Shown: piece by piece, positions 12,786 through 32,494 of the stretch
Numbering within the stretch: the stretch's first letter is position 1
Layout of the letters: each line of letters opens with the position of its first letter
DNA from: an uncultured beta proteobacterium
GTDB taxonomy: Bacteria > Pseudomonadota > Gammaproteobacteria > Burkholderiales > SG8-41
Length of the DNA: 60,804 bases
Assembly (NCBI GenBank): GCA_903913965.1
Contig: CAIWNB010000399.1
Coordinates: 1-60,804, forward strand
Direction: 5' to 3'
Notes under the pieces: generated by a model
The model's input: only the letters and a program-made list of their open reading frames with translations
The model's database searches: none
What the model was told of the DNA's origin: nothing
Program-made: the position numbers and the translations under genes

Positions 12786-13339
12786 CGGCGACCGCCCCAC
12801 GCGTTCGCATTCTAGGCATCGACCCCGGCCTGCGTATCACAGGCTTTGGCATCATCGACAAAACCGGCAACACCCTTGATTACGTCACCAGCGGCTGTAT
12901 TAAAACGCGCGCTGAAGACGGACTCGCGCAGCGCCTGAAAACCATCCTCGATGGTCTCGGTGAAGTGATCACCGCCAACCGGCCCGAACAGGTGGCGATC
13001 GAAAAAGTTTTCGTCAACAGCAATCCCCAATCGACACTGCTGCTCGGGCAGGCGCGTGGCACGGCGATTTGCGCGGCGGTCTTGCAATCATTGATGGTGA
13101 GCGAATACACCGCGCTGCAAATCAAGCAGGCGGTGGTGGGCAATGGGCATGCTGCCAAGGAGCAGGTGCAGGACATGGTCAAGCGCCTGTTGCGATTGGG
13201 CGGAGACCCCAGCGCCGACGCCGCCGACGCGCTGGCCTGCGCGATTTGTCATGCGCATGGCGGCCAAGGCTACGGTCAACTCGCCACCGCCGGTTATCGT
13301 ATGCGGCGCGGTCGTCTGATCGGCCCGGGGCCGGCGTGA
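12782..13339 (+). CDS. ruvC: Crossover junction endodeoxyribonuclease RuvC
   Basis: RuvC resolves Holliday junctions by paired nicks together with RuvAB. The 185-residue protein has the RNase H-like catalytic acids in [14 protein letters not shown] (Asp near residue 12), [15 protein letters not shown], and the C-terminal [12 protein letters not shown]. It begins at GTG overlapping the yebC stop and ends in a 4-base GTGA overlap with the prenyltransferase gene, so all are read as a coupled series. Confidence 0.97.
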
Positions 13340-14283
13340 CGCGACCCTCGGAGCCAACTCCCGAGGCATTGCGTAACCCGCTGCTGCGCTACGGGCTGGC
13401 AACACGCCCGCCGTTTTTGCTGGTGACGCTGATCGGTGCGCTGATTGGTTTTGCCACCGCATATGCGGATGGCGCGCCGGCACAACCGCTGGCCGCAGTT
13501 TGTGCCTTGTTGCTGGGCCTGATCCTGCATGGCGCGGTCAATGTGCTCAACGACTATTACGATGCCCTGAACGGCACCGATACGATCAACACCGCGCGTG
13601 TTTTTCCGTTTACGGGGGGCAGCCGCTTTATCCAGAACGGCGTGTTGAGCGTGTCGCAAACCGCGTTGTATGGATGGCTATTACTCGCGGTTGCGGTGGC
13701 CGGGGGATTGGTGTTGACCACCTACGCCGGCGGGGGACTGATTGCGATCGGCCTGCCCGGCGTGCTGATCGGCTGGGCCTATTCGGCGCCGCCGCTGGCG
13801 CTTAACAGCCGCGGCTTTGGCGAACCCTGTGTTGCCGCTGGCTTTGTGCTGGTCGTGGCGGGTGCCGATTTTGTATTGCGCCATGCCTTGAGCGTCGTGC
13901 CGCTGGTGGCAGCCGCTTCGTTTGCCCTGCTGGTGACTAATGTGCTCTATATCAACCAGTTTCCCGATCGCGATGCCGATATGAAGGTCGGCAAGCATCA
14001 TTGGGTGGTGCGGCTGGGCACACGCCGTGCCGTCCGCGGTTATCATCTTATCGCCGGGCTTGCTTACGCGTGGCTGCTGGCGGCGGTTTTATCAGGCGCG
14101 TTGCCAATGTTGGTGTTATCGGCGCTAGCGGCGGCACCATTTTCGTTGGCGGCGGCCCGCCGTCTGGCGCGCGATGCGGAACAACCGGAACGGCTCGCGC
14201 CGGCGATCAGGCTGACGATTGCTGCAGCGGTGCTGCATGGCGCTTTGCTGGCGTTGGCGATATTTCTACGGGGACACACATGA
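13336..14283 (+). CDS. UbiA-family membrane prenyltransferase (MenA-like)
   Basis: UbiA-type enzymes attach polyprenyl chains to aromatic acceptors in the inner membrane. This 315-residue protein has seven to nine hydrophobic segments and both acidic motifs: [14 protein letters not shown] (about residue 68) and [14 protein letters not shown] (about 209). The second is closer to MenA (dihydroxynaphthoate prenyltransferase) than to UbiA of ubiquinone synthesis. It starts at GTG 13336, overlapping ruvC by 4 bases, and its stop overlaps ruvA by 4 bases, so it is embedded in the ruv operon. The acceptor is unknown; a MenB/BadI-like gene lies 44 kb away in this window. Confidence 0.88.
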
Positions 14284-14864: not shown

Positions 14865-15926
14865 ATGGTGATAGAAACCGACCGCCTGATTTCCGCCGCC
14901 CCCGTCTCTCCTCAGGAAGAGGCGTTCGAGCGTGCATTGCGTCCGAAGGCGCTCGACGAATATGTCGGCCAGAAGAAAATTCGCGCCCAGCTCGAAATCT
15001 TTATCGAAGCGGCGCGCCGGCGCAAGGAACCGCTCGATCACGTCTTGTTGTTCGGGCCACCTGGACTCGGCAAAACCACGCTCGCCCATATCATCGCGCG
15101 TGAAATGGGCGTGAGTCTGCGCCAGACCTCGGGCCCGGTGCTCGAACGTGCCGGTGATCTGGCGGCGATGCTGACCAATTTGCAGCCCAATGATGTTTTG
15201 TTTATCGACGAGATTCACCGTCTGTCGCCAGTGGTCGAGGAGATACTCTATCCGGCGCTGGAGGATTTTCAGCTCGATATCATGATCGGCGAGGGGCCGG
15301 CGGCGCGCTCGGTCAAACTCGATCTGCCGCCGTTTACGTTGATTGGTGCCACCACCCGTGCCGGCATGCTGACCAATCCATTGCGTGATCGCTTCGGTAT
15401 CGTCGCACGGCTTGAGTTTTATACGAATGAAGAACTAACGCAGATCGTGCAGCGTTCGGCGCGCCTGCTGGAAATCGAGACCAGCCCCGAGGGCGCGGGT
15501 GAAATCGCCAGCCGTTCGCGCGCCACGCCGCGTATCTCCAACCGGTTGTTGCGACGGGTGCGCGATTACGCCGAGGTCAAGGCCGACGGCAAGGTGACGC
15601 GCGAAGTGGCCGATGCCGCGTTGAAAATGCTCGATGTCGATCCGCTCGGCCTGGATGTGATGGACCGCAAGCTGCTGCTCGCGGTGATCGAAAAATTTGC
15701 CGGCGGGCCGGTCGGTGTCGACAACCTGGCCGCTGCGCTGAGTGAAGAGCGCGACACCATCGAGGACGTGCTCGAACCTTATCTGATCCAGCAGGGTTAT
15801 CTGCAGCGCACACCGCGCGGGCGGATAGCCACGGCGAGCGCCTATCGTCACTTCGGTCTTGCCGCGCCGCGTGGCGGTGCCAATGCCGAACTATGGGATG
15901 GCGAACCGCCTGCGGTTGTGCCCTGA
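14865..15926 (+). CDS. ruvB: Holliday junction DNA helicase RuvB
   Basis: RuvB is the hexameric AAA+ motor of branch migration. The 353-residue protein has Walker [14 protein letters not shown] (about residue 64), Walker [13 protein letters not shown] (about 112), sensor [18 protein letters not shown], and the C-terminal winged helix with [16 protein letters not shown]. It lies 15 bases after ruvA. The order ruvC-(prenyltransferase)-ruvA-ruvB is otherwise the standard betaproteobacterial one. Confidence 0.98.
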
Positions 15927-15954: not shown

Positions 15955-17610
15955 ATGATGTACCAGATCGAAGTCACTACTCACTGCAACTTCGAATGCT
16001 TTTACTGCGCCGGCCGCGCCATGCCGCAGCGGCATATGCCGTGGGATCTCTTTAAAAGCATTATCGACGGTATTCCCTCAGGGCAGCACATGGTCTCGCT
16101 GCAGGGCGAAGGCGAGCCGACCACGCATCCAAAGTTCCGTGAAATGGCCGAGGCGGTGAGCGCGCGCAGTCTGGTCCCCTTTACGATCACTAACGGTGCG
16201 CAAATCGATGCGGACTGGATGGCCTCAACCTTTCCGAGCATTGGCGTCTCTATTGACACGCTGGATGCTGCTGAAGCTGAACGCATCGGCCGGCACAAAC
16301 TAGACCGAGTGCTGAAAAATCTCGAAGCCCTTGATGCGCGCATGGGGCCGAAGCGAATCCGCATCATGAGTGTCAACTATGGCCAGTCGCTGGATGCAGT
16401 GCGTGAATTTGTGCGCGCCCGCGGCTATCGCCATAGCGTACAGTCGTTGCAGACCAAACCCGACTACGCGCATCGTTATCCCGCGGCGTTTGATGCGCCG
16501 CCGCCGCGTTATACCTACCGTTGCCGCTACCTCGAACGCCCTCTGAAGCGTTATTACGACATCGAAGGCCGCGAATATCCCTGCTGCTTTATCAAGGATG
16601 CGCGTTTGCACGAGCCTATCGCCGCCATGCAGGAAAAAATGGCGGCTGGTGAAATTCCGCCGGCTTGTACGGGTTGTCGCGAGGTGCTCACCGCAGGTAG
16701 CCTGCCGATACCGCGGCTGGCTGCGGTCGCGCGGTCTGCTACGGACGTCACCGACACTGGTGACGCCGTGCCCGAACTCAGCATCATTACGACGTGCAAG
16801 GGGCGCCTCGCCCATCTCAAACAGACGCTACCTGCGATGGTGGCGCAGGCGGATACCGAGGTGATCGTGGTTGATTACGCTTGCCCGGAAGGCACGGCTG
16901 ATTGGGTTGCGGCAACTTTTCCGCAGGTGCGCGTGGTGCGTATTGAGCGTGCGCCGTTTTTCAACGTGGCACGCGCACGCAATTCGGGTGCCGCGCAGGC
17001 ACACGGACGCTGGTTGTGTTTTGTGGATGCCGATATTCTTCTCGCTGCGGATTTTGCGGTGCGTGTGCGGCCTCTTTTGCAGAACGACGCTTTTCATGTA
17101 TTTGCCAATCCGCAGCCGGCGGTGTTGGGTGCGGTGGTTTGCCGGCCGGCGGATTTTACGGCGATCGGCGGTTATGACGATGTGATCGAGGGTTACGGCA
17201 CCGAAGACCGCGATCTCTATCTGCGCTTACTCGCGCATGGCCGGCGGAGTGAACAGTTGCCGGGGGATATTGTGCAGGCGCTCTCTCACGATCGCGCTGC
17301 CAGTGTGCGTTATTACGAACTCAAGGATCACACGCTCAGCCAGCGCATCAACGCCACCTATGTTCAGATCAAACAGGATCTGGCCCGCCAGTTCGGGGCC
17401 CATTTTCTTGGCGTCGATACGCGCAGGACAATTTATGCCGAGGTCGGGCGCGCCTTTCGGCAGGCCGCCGCGTCCGGGCGGCCTGCAACTCGCGTTGAAA
17501 TCACTTTGCCGGCCGCTCTCGACGTGCGCCTTTTCGACTGGCAGATGACGCGGGTATGGACCTACCTGCTGAATCCTTTGCCGCCGCCACTGCGCGTGCC
17601 CGAAGAATAG
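15955..17610 (+). CDS. Radical SAM / GT2 glycosyltransferase fusion protein
   Basis: This 551-residue protein joins two enzyme domains. Residues about 1-255 form a radical SAM domain with the cluster motif CNFECFYC (Cys 11, 15, 18), a GEGEPTTHP glycine-rich SAM segment, and a later CCF...CTGC cysteine group like a SPASM-type extra cluster. Residues about 272-551 form a GT2-type glycosyltransferase with ELSIITTCKGRLAHLKQTL, FFNVARARNSGA, and the acid motif CFVDADILL, followed by a galactosyltransferase-like GYGTEDRDLYLRLL. Separate proteins are the normal arrangement. Substrate and product are unknown. The frame is open from 15859 inside ruvB; ATG 15955 gives the usual distance to the first Cys. 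It lies between ruvB and ybgC. Confidence 0.82.
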   Translation: MMYQIEVTTHCNFECFYCAGRAMPQRHMPWDLFKSIIDGIPSGQHMVSLQGEGEPTTHPKFREMAEAVSARSLVPFTITNGAQIDADWMASTFPSIGVSIDTLDAAEAERIGRHKLDRVLKNLEALDARMGPKRIRIMSVNYGQSLDAVREFVRARGYRHSVQSLQTKPDYAHRYPAAFDAPPPRYTYRCRYLERPLKRYYDIEGREYPCCFIKDARLHEPIAAMQEKMAAGEIPPACTGCREVLTAGSLPIPRLAAVARSATDVTDTGDAVPELSIITTCKGRLAHLKQTLPAMVAQADTEVIVVDYACPEGTADWVAATFPQVRVVRIERAPFFNVARARNSGAAQAHGRWLCFVDADILLAADFAVRVRPLLQNDAFHVFANPQPAVLGAVVCRPADFTAIGGYDDVIEGYGTEDRDLYLRLLAHGRRSEQLPGDIVQALSHDRAASVRYYELKDHTLSQRINATYVQIKQDLARQFGAHFLGVDTRRTIYAEVGRAFRQAAASGRPATRVEITLPAALDVRLFDWQMTRVWTYLLNPLPPPLRVPEE

Positions 17611-17688: not shown

Positions 17689-18129
17689 GTGAAATTGAGT
17701 GCCCAGACATTTACGGAACAAACAAGCGTATTTCGCTGGCCGGTGCGTGTCTATTACGAAGACACCGACGCCGCCGGCGTGGTTTATTACGCGAACTATC
17801 TGAAGTTTCTCGAACGCGCGCGCACCGAATGGCTGCGTGCGGCCGGTTTCGAGCAGACGGCGTTGCGCGATGAACATGGCATCGTGTTTGTGGTGCGCGC
17901 AGTCAATATCGACTATGCGGCGCCGGCCCGTTTCAACGATGCGCTTGAAGTCACGGTGGCAGTGAATTTGGTCCGCGGTAGCGTGATCGAACTCGCGCAA
18001 ACCGTGTGTGGAGAGGCCGGTGTGTTGGTGACCGCGCTGGTCAGGGTGGTCTGTGTCAACACGCTGACATTCAGGCCCGTTAGAATACCGACGTTGATTG
18101 TCGAAAAACTCGCTGTGAGGTGCGCATGA
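17689..18129 (+). CDS. ybgC: Tol-Pal associated acyl-CoA thioesterase YbgC
   Basis: YbgC is a hotdog-fold thioesterase for short acyl-CoAs, encoded with tolQRAB. The 146 residues include the 4-hydroxybenzoyl-CoA-thioesterase-type motif YYEDTDAAGVVYYANYLKFL with the catalytic Asp, and VVRAVNIDYAAPARF. GTG 17689 is given as start. However, GGAGG at 17683-17687 sits one base from that GTG but seven bases from an in-frame TTG at 17695, so TTG may be the real start. The end overlaps tolQ by 4 bases. Confidence 0.94.
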   Translation: MKLSAQTFTEQTSVFRWPVRVYYEDTDAAGVVYYANYLKFLERARTEWLRAAGFEQTALRDEHGIVFVVRAVNIDYAAPARFNDALEVTVAVNLVRGSVIELAQTVCGEAGVLVTALVRVVCVNTLTFRPVRIPTLIVEKLAVRCA

Positions 18130-28794: not shown

Positions 28795-29634
28795 ATGTTG
28801 TCACGCCTGATTGCGGCCATCAAAAGCAGACGTAAAACGATCGCGCCCCCGCCGGCTGGAAACTATGTCGGTTTAATGGGCGGACTGGGCAATCAGCTCT
28901 TTCAATATGCCTATGCCCGCTATCTGGTGGCGAACGGTGTGGCGGTTAGCGCACTTGCCACCAATTTGTTTGACCACGATCCCTATGCACGCAAACCGCT
29001 TGTGCAGCGTATCTCGCGGTTGCCTGCCATCGTGTTGCAGCGTAAGCAAATTGCCGCGCTGAAGATCATGGCCGACGAAGACGGCGTTACGATGGGCAAC
29101 ACCTTGCGTGAGTCCGGTGAGACCGGTGTGTTCTGTCGAGGCTATTGGCAGGACCCTCGTTATGCCAGCGCAGTGTCTGTCGAACTTGCGGCGGATTTAC
29201 AGGCGTTTGGCGCAGATCATTGTTCCGCTGTGACGACCCCCTGTGTGTTGCATGTGCGCCGCCATGACTACGGCCATCACGGCTTGCTGCCGTTGCAATA
29301 TTATCGTGCCGCGCTTGAGCAATACGGTGACCCGGAATTCCAGGTGGTCACCGATGAACCGAATTTTTGCGAGTATGCGTTCTCCAAAATACCGGGCTAT
29401 AGCGGCGTTGTGCGTGGCAACACCCGGGAGCCGTGGGATGATTTTTTTCTCATGTCGGCGGCCCCCATGCAGATCATCGCCAATTCGTCGTTCAGCTGGT
29501 GGACAGCGTGGCTCGGAGAAGTCAGCGGCGTGACCAAAAAAATCATTGCGCCGGCTGAATGGTCGCTGCTGGGGCAGCCCGCCGCTTGCCCCGTCAGCTG
29601 GCAACGCATCGAGATGCCGCTGCAGCGGCCATGA
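28795..29634 (+). CDS. GT11 alpha-1,2-fucosyltransferase-like protein
   Basis: GT11 enzymes transfer fucose from GDP-fucose to a glycan acceptor. The 279-residue protein shows GLMGGLGNQLFQYAYARYL (residues about 26-44), the donor-site motif as HVRRHDY (about 152), and ANSSFSWWTAWLGE (about 223), in family order. The normal motif is HVRRGDY, and here His replaces the Gly next to the essential Arg, so activity may be altered. Length is normal. It is followed 22 bases later by a GT2 gene, so this is a glycan-building cassette. No GDP-fucose synthesis genes are in the window. Confidence 0.87.
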   Translation: MLSRLIAAIKSRRKTIAPPPAGNYVGLMGGLGNQLFQYAYARYLVANGVAVSALATNLFDHDPYARKPLVQRISRLPAIVLQRKQIAALKIMADEDGVTMGNTLRESGETGVFCRGYWQDPRYASAVSVELAADLQAFGADHCSAVTTPCVLHVRRHDYGHHGLLPLQYYRAALEQYGDPEFQVVTDEPNFCEYAFSKIPGYSGVVRGNTREPWDDFFLMSAAPMQIIANSSFSWWTAWLGEVSGVTKKIIAPAEWSLLGQPAACPVSWQRIEMPLQRP

Positions 29635-29656
29635 ATACGGGACTCTGAAGCAGCGC

Positions 29657-30685
29657 ATGTCGGAGACACCCCTCTTAACCGTCATCATCCCCGCATTCAA
29701 TGCCGGCGCCTTCGTGCGCGAAGCGATCGAGTCGGTGCTCGAGAATGGATTTTCCGATCTCGAGCTGCTGGTGATCGACGACGGCTCGACCGACAACACC
29801 GTTGAAGTCGTCAATGCTATCCATCACCCCGCGCTTAGATTGGTGCGGCAGCAGACTAATCAGGGGGTCGGTCGCACGCGTCGACTTGCCACCAGCCGCG
29901 CCCGCGGGCGCCTGCTGGCCATGCTGGATGCGGACGACATTGCGGTGCCTGGTCGTTTCGCGTTGCAGGTTGAATATCTAGAGGCTGCGGAAGCCCCGCA
30001 TATCGTCGGCGGTGCGATCGAAAACTTTGGCGATCGCGCGGGAGTTGTCGAATTTCCGCTGCGTGATGCGGAAATTCGCGCCGGCTTGTTGTTTCACGAT
30101 CTGCCCATCGCCAATCCCGCGGTGTGCATGAAGCTTGCCGCCTTGCGTGAGGCCGGCGTTAACTACGGTGAGCATCGGGGTGCGGAAGACTATGCGTTGT
30201 GGGTCGATGCGCTCTGTGCCGGACTGCGTTTTGCCAATCTGCCGACGGTGGTCACGCGCATGCGGCGGCACGCGGCGTCGCTGACGCGTCTCAAGCAAAG
30301 TGAAGCGGAAGCGCCGGCGCGTGCCTTGCGTGCGCGCATCGCCGAGCGGTTTTTTCCGCACATGACGCCACCTCAACGCGCAGCGCTGGTCGAGGCGTTA
30401 TCGGTCAATATCGGTGGCGGTCAGCGCTGGATCGACGGCGTGTGCGCGCTGGCGCAGGCTGCACGCTGCGCGGATGCCGTGACAGGCGTTGATGCAGCGA
30501 CCCTGTGCCGTCTGCTGAAAGATAACTTCCTGCGTATGCTGCGATATGCCCTCGATCATCAACTGATCGATAATGATTTGCTCGAAATGCTCACCGAGAC
30601 CAACGCTGATTTTGAACACTGGCGCATGGCCGATGATGGCGCACTTGATCTGCAGATCGTCGAGCTGGTGAGCGCTGCAGGATAA
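29657..30685 (+). CDS. GT2-family glycosyltransferase
   Basis: The 342-residue protein has the GT-A nucleotide-sugar fold: LLTVIIPAFNAGAFVREAI, LVIDDGSTDNTVEVV, and the DxD region MLDADDIAVPGRF (about residue 96). C-terminal to this is GAEDYALWVDAL-type HRGAEDYALWVDAL near 175. The last 120 residues are an alpha-helical extension without a recognised domain. ATG 29657 follows the fucosyltransferase stop; the longer frame from 29546 overlaps that gene. Donor and acceptor are unknown. Confidence 0.88.
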   Translation: MSETPLLTVIIPAFNAGAFVREAIESVLENGFSDLELLVIDDGSTDNTVEVVNAIHHPALRLVRQQTNQGVGRTRRLATSRARGRLLAMLDADDIAVPGRFALQVEYLEAAEAPHIVGGAIENFGDRAGVVEFPLRDAEIRAGLLFHDLPIANPAVCMKLAALREAGVNYGEHRGAEDYALWVDALCAGLRFANLPTVVTRMRRHAASLTRLKQSEAEAPARALRARIAERFFPHMTPPQRAALVEALSVNIGGGQRWIDGVCALAQAARCADAVTGVDAATLCRLLKDNFLRMLRYALDHQLIDNDLLEMLTETNADFEHWRMADDGALDLQIVELVSAAG

Positions 30686-30955
30686 TGTGTGAGTCCCTCC
30701 AGCAGGCGCCCAATGAGCATACGTGCTGTGGGCGCGGCGGCGGCTAACTCGTACAGGGTTTTGACCAAGGTGCATCCTTCAAGTGAGTGAACAAATTGCT
30801 CGCGATCACCGCTGCCGGACAACAAGGTGCAGGTCTGGATTAATCACGATGGTGCGCAGACGGCGACGCTGAAAACGCACCCGCGTATTATGATGAGCTC
30901 ATCGTATCCTTGAGAGGAATCACAGGCGCCGGCCGATACCTGCCCTTTTTTCGCC
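30686..30955. other. Intergenic stretch between GT2 and GT41 genes
   Basis: No supported gene lies in these 270 bases. A minus-strand frame through it also runs into the GT2 gene and looks like a shadow. I see no terminator. Confidence 0.4.
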
Positions 30956-32494
30956 ATGCTGCGCAGACTCTTACAACGCTGGTTCGGACTTTCGACGCAT
31001 GCGCCGGTAGAGGCAGGCCCGCAGGCGCTGGTGCGCGAGGGCGATCGACTTGCCCGCAGCGGCGCATTGACGGTGGCGCTCGAGCGCTATCACGCCGCGC
31101 TTGAAAACGATCCGCGCTGTCTTGATGCTTGGCTCGGCATTGGCAACACGCTGGTGGATGCCTGGCGGCTCGATGAAGCGATGGCTGCTTATGCGCGCGC
31201 CCTCGTCATCGCGCCGCAGGCGACGGCCATTCGTTCTGCATTGTTATTTCACCAACACTATGCGTCTGCGATCGACGGGCCCGCCTTGTTTGCGGCGCAT
31301 CGCGAGGCTGCCATGTATTGGCCTCCCGTTGTAGTCGATGCTGATCAACGCACAGTTCGCTCGCCAACTGGCCGGCGTCTGCGCATCGGTTATGTCTCGC
31401 CGAATTTTTCTCGGCACTCGGTGGGTTATTTCATCGAGCCGGTCATACGCAATCACGACCGCGAACAGTTCGAAATTTTCTGTTACTACGCGCATCCCAA
31501 AGCGGATGATGTCACCGCACGTTTTCGCGCCATGGCTGATGCGTGGCGCGAGATTGCAGACACCGACGGCGAGGCACTGGCCGCGCTGATCCGCAATGAC
31601 GCCATCGACGTGCTGGTTGATCTGGCCGGACATTCGAAGATGAACAAGCTCGCCGCTTTCGCGCACAGGCCGGCGCCCCTGCAAATCACCTGGCTTGGTT
31701 ACCCTGATACCACCGGGCTGCCAGCGATGGACTTGCGTCTCACCGATACGATCGCTGATCCGCCGCCGCAGGCCGATCGGCTCAACAGCGAGCGACTCGT
31801 CCGCATCGACGGCGGTTTTCTCTGTTATCAGCCGCCCGCTGACAGTCCGCCGCCGGCGGCCCAGGTCAATCCGGCGACGGCGGTGGTGTTTGCCTCCTTC
31901 AATAACCTGGCCAAAATCAATCTCCCCATGGTGCGCCTCTGGAGCGCGATCCTGCAGGCGGTGCCCGGTTCGCGGCTGGTGCTTAAATCGGCAGCGCTTG
32001 ATTTCACTGAAACCGCCGATCGGGTGCTCGAAGCGTTTGAGGAATGCGGTGTCGCCGCCGGGCGGGTCGAGTTGCGCGGTTGGATCGCACAACGCGGCGC
32101 CCATCTGCAAATGTATGAGGGTGTGGACATCGCCCTCGATACCCATCCCTACAACGGCACCACCACCACCTGCGAGGCCCTATGGATGGGGGTGCCAGTG
32201 GTGACGCTGGCCGGTGACGTGCACATGGCACGTGTCGGCGCTTCGTTGTTGCATAGCGCCGGCCTCGATGAACTGATCGCGACCGATAGCGAGGCCTATG
32301 TCGCGATTGCCGTGGCGCTCGCCAACGACGAAGCGCGCCGCCGTACAATACGCACGGGCGTGCGCGAACGCCTCGCCGCCTCGGCACTGCTCGATCATGC
32401 CGGCTTCACCCGCAAGCTCGAACAGGTTTATCGCGATTATTTGTCGTCGGCTCGAAACGGTACTCAGAACGAGGCTGTTGTCAGGCTGACGTGA
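30956..32494 (+). CDS. GT41 (O-GlcNAc transferase/SPINDLY-like) TPR glycosyltransferase
   Basis: The 512-residue protein has about two TPR units (residues 25-95), then a GT41 catalytic domain. The motifs are RIGYVSPNFSRHSVGYFIEP, LVDLAGHSKMNKL, PLQITWLGYPDTTGLPAMD, FASFNNLAKINL, and TTTTCEALWMGVPVVTLAGD followed by HMARVGASLL. GT41 members modify Ser/Thr of proteins (O-GlcNAc or O-fucose) or act in bacterial glycan synthesis; in bacteria the acceptor is seldom known. The TPR part is short compared with eukaryotic OGT. It forms a cassette with the two preceding glycosyltransferases. Confidence 0.92.
   Translation: MLRRLLQRWFGLSTHAPVEAGPQALVREGDRLARSGALTVALERYHAALENDPRCLDAWLGIGNTLVDAWRLDEAMAAYARALVIAPQATAIRSALLFHQHYASAIDGPALFAAHREAAMYWPPVVVDADQRTVRSPTGRRLRIGYVSPNFSRHSVGYFIEPVIRNHDREQFEIFCYYAHPKADDVTARFRAMADAWREIADTDGEALAALIRNDAIDVLVDLAGHSKMNKLAAFAHRPAPLQITWLGYPDTTGLPAMDLRLTDTIADPPPQADRLNSERLVRIDGGFLCYQPPADSPPPAAQVNPATAVVFASFNNLAKINLPMVRLWSAILQAVPGSRLVLKSAALDFTETADRVLEAFEECGVAAGRVELRGWIAQRGAHLQMYEGVDIALDTHPYNGTTTTCEALWMGVPVVTLAGDVHMARVGASLLHSAGLDELIATDSEAYVAIAVALANDEARRRTIRTGVRERLAASALLDHAGFTRKLEQVYRDYLSSARNGTQNEAVVRLT

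Follow-up and report, generated by a model that had tools for sequence, protein, structure and literature searches.

A gene joining a radical SAM/twitch half to a glycosyltransferase half in the ruvB–ybgC slot, with each half also found alone

Introduction

What does the fusion of two enzymes into one polypeptide tell us about their substrates? The question is raised by a gene in the window (the whole stretch of DNA analysed here, 60,804 nucleotides from an uncultured beta proteobacterium), in which a radical SAM domain precedes a GT2-type glycosyltransferase (GT) domain. Few features of a sequence hint at what an uncharacterised radical SAM enzyme acts on, and a domain fusion is one of them. 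Should the two halves serve one pathway, the gene would connect glycan assembly with radical SAM chemistry; should they share none, it would be a clean example of a fusion misleading functional inference. The locus provides a natural test set: one chromosomal place in one bacterial family holds the fusion, the radical SAM enzyme alone, the GT alone or nothing. A literature search, which covered few subscription papers, returned nothing on point about radical SAM–GT fusions.

The fusion gene and its position

The gene lies between ruvB and ybgC, in a place that we call the slot:

14865..15926, + strand: ruvB, upstream border of the slot
15955..17610, + strand: radical SAM/twitch–GT2 fusion gene, 551 aa (open reading frame; kept in G006 and G012)
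17689..18129, + strand: ybgC, downstream border of the slot, followed by tolQ-tolR-tolA-tolB-pal

The frame opens with ATG at 15955 and runs uninterrupted for 551 codons to a stop at 17608-17610, separated by 28 nt from the end of ruvB and by 78 nt from the start of ybgC, with all genes on the + strand. Frame, start and stop agree with the 551-residue protein that had been described earlier from the letters alone (the sequence-only reading), as does the place between ruvB and ybgC. That reading had proposed a search for the same architecture elsewhere, and the search of a whole-genome set located the fusion in two more genomes of the window's genus, G006 (95% identity) and G012 (71%), in both cases flanked by ruvB and ybgC. 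A scan of GTDB genome contigs retrieved CAMDSO010000058.1 and JANYDY010000107.1, which are the G006 and G012 fusions again; it used two N-terminal patterns only, so that distant fusions could escape it. An assembly or frame artefact, the objection that the sequence-only reading had raised against itself, has next to no chance of being the explanation, as the unbroken fused frame is present in three genomes and is under purifying selection.

The neighbours, which were also to be checked for peptide precursors or glycan genes, are ruv and tol-pal genes: no glycan gene stands directly beside the fusion gene, and the slot is too tight for a precursor. Sites resembling promoters or terminators occur in the region no more often than in shuffled sequence.

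Several features of the surroundings deserve mention in their own right. Three consecutive glycan genes, encoding a GT11 (fucosyltransferase-type), a GT2 and a TPR-GT41 (O-GlcNAc transferase-like) protein, lie at 28795-32494 (+), about 11 kb downstream of the fusion gene. A link to queuosine was considered, with queE starting 5.4 kb downstream, but the literature search gave no support for it. Between ruvC and ruvA the window carries a UbiA-type prenyltransferase gene (13339-14283, +; Pfam UbiA 2e-24). In the corresponding region G012 has nothing that matches it, and G006 only a match to a C-terminal fragment just upstream of ruvA; given this patchiness, the fusion gene may not be the only variable insert in the ruv row. 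The contig CAMDSO010000058.1 is titled Bordetella parapertussis, but G006 is placed with the window's genus, whose genomes are fragmented, and the species name seems mistaken.

The radical SAM and twitch half

The two-domain composition described by the sequence-only reading is upheld by Pfam matches above the curated cut-offs in both halves. The features of the N-terminal half and the linker are as follows, the boundary at residue 246 being the length of stand-alone homologues in genus g6 of the same family:

15955..16692, + strand: radical SAM and twitch half, residues 1-246 (PF04055 at 5-153; stand-alone g6 homologues match 1-246)
15985..16008, + strand: CX3CX2C radical SAM cluster motif, C11/C15/C18 (from the sequence; invariant in eight homologues)
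16522..16677, + strand: twitch-type auxiliary-cluster cysteines C190, C210/C211, C238 and C241 (invariant in eight homologues)
16693..16767, + strand: linker, residues 247-271 (25 residues), weakly constrained (dN/dS 0.44-0.65 between fusions)

Radical_SAM (PF04055) matches residues 5-153 with an E-value of 4e-10 and 40.5 bits (cut-off 29.5), and the CX3CX2C motif is intact, as had been noticed before. The cysteine group further downstream is also real, but its earlier description as SPASM-like has to be changed to twitch-like. The SPASM motif comprises seven cysteines, CX9-15GX4C..CX2CX5CX3C..C (PMC6231123); the fusion protein has only C190, C210, C211, C238 and C241 between barrel and GT half, lacks the CX2CX5CX3C stretch and does not match PF13186 (SPASM), so that a full SPASM domain is rejected. 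The twitch layout of BtrN has one cysteine before a beta-hairpin, one after it and two after the next helix (PMC6231123). The same layout is found here, with the cysteines taken from sequence and invariance and the secondary structure (E198-201, E207-210, H222-230) from a low-confidence model. That AlphaFold model of residues 1-250 (pLDDT 57) displays six strand-helix repeats in the pattern of a barrel, then the hairpin at 198-210 and the helix at 222-230, with the cysteines placed around hairpin and helix; the full-length model (pLDDT 45) was too poor for use. We infer from these features that the half cleaves SAM and carries one auxiliary cluster.

To which radical SAM enzymes is this half closest? 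No NCBIfam model reaches its cut-off for the fusion protein, in agreement with the earlier statement that it has no known named function; the best match, TIGR04317 (tungsten-enzyme radical SAM maturase), scores 68.5-70.9 bits over residues 5-128 only, against a cut-off of 380. A profile of the eight homologues compared with solved sequences ranks PqqE first, then BlsE (E 4e-4) and DesII (E 1e-3), a weak signal. The fold matches were for the most part a mixture of radical SAM enzymes and TIM barrels, and their ranking is uninformative: the comparison effectively covered residues 1-171 of the pLDDT 57 model, and many radical SAM enzymes tie. BtrN is not among the fold matches listed for that model, which we do not count against its likeness. 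MoaA and SkfB share with the fusion a radical SAM domain and a single auxiliary cluster region (predicted in the fusion), but the fusion scores 38-40 bits against the MoaA cut-off of 284, and SkfB has an N-terminal RiPP recognition element (RRE) that is absent here.

The glycosyltransferase half

The C-terminal half begins at about the residue (272) given by the sequence-only reading, and the DxD-type motif named there is D358-A-D360:

16768..17607, + strand: GT2/GT-A glycosyltransferase half, residues 272-551 (PF00535, PF10111, PF02709; stand-alone homologue in G008)
17026..17034, + strand: DxD motif, D358-A-D360 (invariant in the three fusions and the stand-alone GT)
17200..17208, + strand: xED motif, T416-E417-D418 (invariant in the same four proteins)
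17287..17289, + strand: C-His, H445, predicted metal ligand (invariant in the same four proteins)

Glyco_tranf_2_2 (PF10111; E 7e-12, 45.8 bits, cut-off 27.3) and Glycos_transf_2 (PF00535; E 3e-10, 40.6 bits, cut-off 23.3) both match the 276-367 region, and Glyco_transf_7C (PF02709) matches residues 392-440 (E 4e-8, above the curated cut-off). DxD, xED and C-His are core motifs of the GT-A fold, with xED providing the catalytic base of inverting enzymes (PMC7185993); the intact xED and C-His thus point to a metal-dependent inverting GT-A enzyme. The mycofactocin glycosyltransferase model MftF (TIGR03965) gives 44.4 bits against a cut-off of 280, and there are weak matches to SunS and to ppGalNAc-transferases, enzymes that glycosylate peptides or proteins.

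In its domains and motifs this half resembles the GT2/galactosyltransferase-like GT-A enzymes with a Glyco_transf_7C region. Its relatives of 35-42% identity, which occur both elsewhere in the order and in one other order of the same class, differ in being separate genes, and no radical SAM relative was seen within the several kilobases read around them. One genome of that other order, G459, has three copies of the GT family at 35-40% identity (L053, L054, L055); in L055 the similarity ends after about 150 residues and the frame at 188 residues.

Occupancy of the slot

The census was based on the 74 genomes of the window's GTDB family. We found ruvB in 66 and read 63 regions, in 58 of which ybgC was also located; none of the five regions without a detected ybgC has a radical SAM or GT match. 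The slot is empty in 49 of the 58 readable genomes, and holds the fusion in three (the window, G006 and G012), the radical SAM half alone in five and the GT half alone in one. The five radical SAM-only genomes (G1144, G1145, G1147, G1154 and G1156) all belong to genus g6; their proteins of 246-260 aa are 53-59% identical to fusion residues 1-246, and their ATG overlaps the ruvB stop as TGATG, which suggests translational coupling with ruvB. The single GT-only genome, G008, is of the window's genus; its GT (314 aa) is about 60% identical, and ruvB ends just inside the GT start. In family-wide searches with the full protein (E<=1e-10), none of the five radical SAM-only genomes showed a separately encoded GT partner, nor did G008 show a radical SAM partner of this kind, and no genome was found with both halves as separate adjacent genes. 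The two-domain enzyme is genuine, its pairing real and new-looking, and its halves are evidently able to live apart.

In genus g6 the gap between ruvB and ybgC also contains a conserved AT-rich element close to TATTTGTTTTAATTGAATAA (L103, L109, L116, L122; L097, L104, L112, L121). Genomes that have the radical SAM gene share it with genomes that lack the gene, and it may be a promoter of the ybgC-tol row or regulate this row in another way.

Selection and history

Pairwise dN/dS between the fusions is 0.05-0.31 for the radical SAM and twitch parts and 0.16-0.18 for the GT part, as opposed to 0.4-0.65 for the linker, which indicates that both domains are under selection and that the linker between them is loose. 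The stand-alone forms are similarly constrained, with 0.16-0.21 for the stand-alone GT against the fused ones and 0.09-0.15 for the stand-alone radical SAM genes of g6, which, judged by these values, appear to be functional without the GT.

Occupied and empty genomes are interspersed in a tree of ruvB, ybgC and tolQ, some nodes of which are weakly supported: G001, whose slot is empty, falls together with the fusion genomes, and every genome with the radical SAM half alone is next to empty ones. Could the insert have been passed recently between the occupied genomes? Its dS is mostly at least that of ruvB and tolQ in the same pairs, the exceptions with lower values being the G000-G006 pair for the GT half and the G1144-G1145 pair for the radical SAM gene, so that recent sharing is unlikely as a general explanation and such transfer is unsupported. 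The distribution fits an old accessory gene that was lost many times, or one exchanged from outside the sampled pool. The fused form itself has persisted at least since G012 split from G000 and G006 (dS of both halves >1.3). Carriage by phages or plasmids was rejected, as viral contigs, phages and plasmids yielded partial distant matches or none, and no full-length relative.

The fusion appears confined to the window's genus in the genome sets of family, order, class and phylum: searches of 399 order, 369 class and 398 phylum genomes gave no further case. Pfam was also run on several other long frames of radical SAM or GT type among the relatives, and showed none of them to join the two. The radical SAM subfamily itself was not detected outside the family at E<=1e-25 in the 399 genomes of the order.

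Possible functions

The explanation that we tentatively prefer, with less than even confidence, is that a SAM-cleaving twitch half with a two-electron reaction of the BtrN kind and an inverting GT act in the same glycoconjugate-tailoring pathway, encoded by an old accessory gene of the slot. The N-terminal half would cleave SAM with its CX3CX2C cluster, and a single twitch-type auxiliary cluster would lead to a two-electron radical reaction, presumably a dehydrogenation or related epimerisation at a C-H of a sugar, a cyclitol or a sugar-bearing substrate. The C-terminal half would use a nucleotide sugar as donor and pass its sugar, probably a hexose or N-acetylhexosamine, on to an acceptor. 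A flexible linker would join the halves, which in the three fusion genomes would serve the same pathway without strict mutual dependence.

The proposed chemistry draws on three comparisons. BtrN, the radical SAM/twitch 2-deoxy-scyllo-inosamine dehydrogenase of butirosin biosynthesis, is the model twitch enzyme. It has a fully Cys-ligated auxiliary cluster and carries out a two-electron oxidation (PMC9012708), and it shares with the fusion a compact radical SAM barrel followed by a twitch cysteine set (PMC6231123; for the fusion partly from the low-confidence model). BtrN differs in having no GT, and PDB searches detected no sequence match between it and the fusion. BlsE (cytosylglucuronate decarboxylase) and DesII (a TDP-sugar ammonia-lyase), the nearest solved radical SAM sequences after PqqE, act on nucleoside- or nucleotide-bound sugars, although the similarity is at superfamily level only and the fusion stays far below the NCBIfam equivalog scores. 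Together with the attachment of a GT in three species, the chemistry of BtrN and the nearness of BlsE and DesII make us lean towards a glycoconjugate pathway in which a sugar or cyclitol is oxidised or epimerised, a reading of superfamily-level similarity in a group of SPASM/twitch enzymes in which sequence similarity networks predict fold and function poorly (PMC6231123).

Does the fusion imply a common substrate? The sequence-only reading had taken it to mean that both steps act on one, which does not follow: the slot holds five radical SAM genes and one GT gene on their own, and each half persists in genomes without a close partner elsewhere. The same stand-alone occurrence weakens the case for a common pathway, which we nevertheless regard as plausible. 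The main rival holds that two independent enzymes, neighbours in the slot, were merged by loss of a stop codon and share their expression but not a substrate. This is possible, if rather unlikely. The stand-alone forms sit in exactly the same slot with low dN/dS, the linker is loose and variable, and with the TGATG overlap in g6 co-expression alone could explain the position. The absence among the genomes read of both halves as separate adjacent genes argues against it, as does the retention of the fused form since the G012 split. The census supports such a merger about as well as a shared pathway, and it removes the argument from fusion to common substrate.

A stronger version of the shared pathway would have the single polypeptide couple radical C-H chemistry to glycosyl transfer, the sugar of one glycoconjugate being oxidised or epimerised directly before or after its transfer. 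Such a bifunctional 'radical glycosyltransferase', as the coupled enzyme might be named, is without description in the literature searched (few subscription papers), and we consider it unlikely.

Another possibility is that the fusion tailors a peptide or protein, the twitch half modifying a residue and the GT half glycosylating the same molecule. Many of the weakly similar SPASM/twitch enzymes act on peptides (PqqE, the mycofactocin maturase, AmcB and the sactipeptide maturases), and the weak matches of the GT half to SunS and the ppGalNAc-transferases are in the same direction. The gaps of the slot, however, leave no space for a precursor peptide, and the fusion protein has no N-terminal extension and hence no RRE. 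We judge this account improbable. A prokaryotic viperin-like antiviral enzyme with an added GT is very hard to sustain: the patchy accessory occurrence, the similar N-terminal radical SAM core and the matches to PADLOC pVip (50 bits) and NCBIfam viperin NF038283 (43.8-46.1 bits) would be in keeping with it, but the scores are far below the NF038283 cut-off of 180, the alignment covers no more than the first half of the model, MoaA and the tungsten-enzyme maturase score similarly or better, and the twitch cysteines are conserved.

Two distant radical SAM/SPASM relatives adjoin genes that by eye resemble glycan genes: L005 has GT41-like and CmcI-like neighbours, and L063 has a gene for a Wzt-like ABC ATPase beside it.
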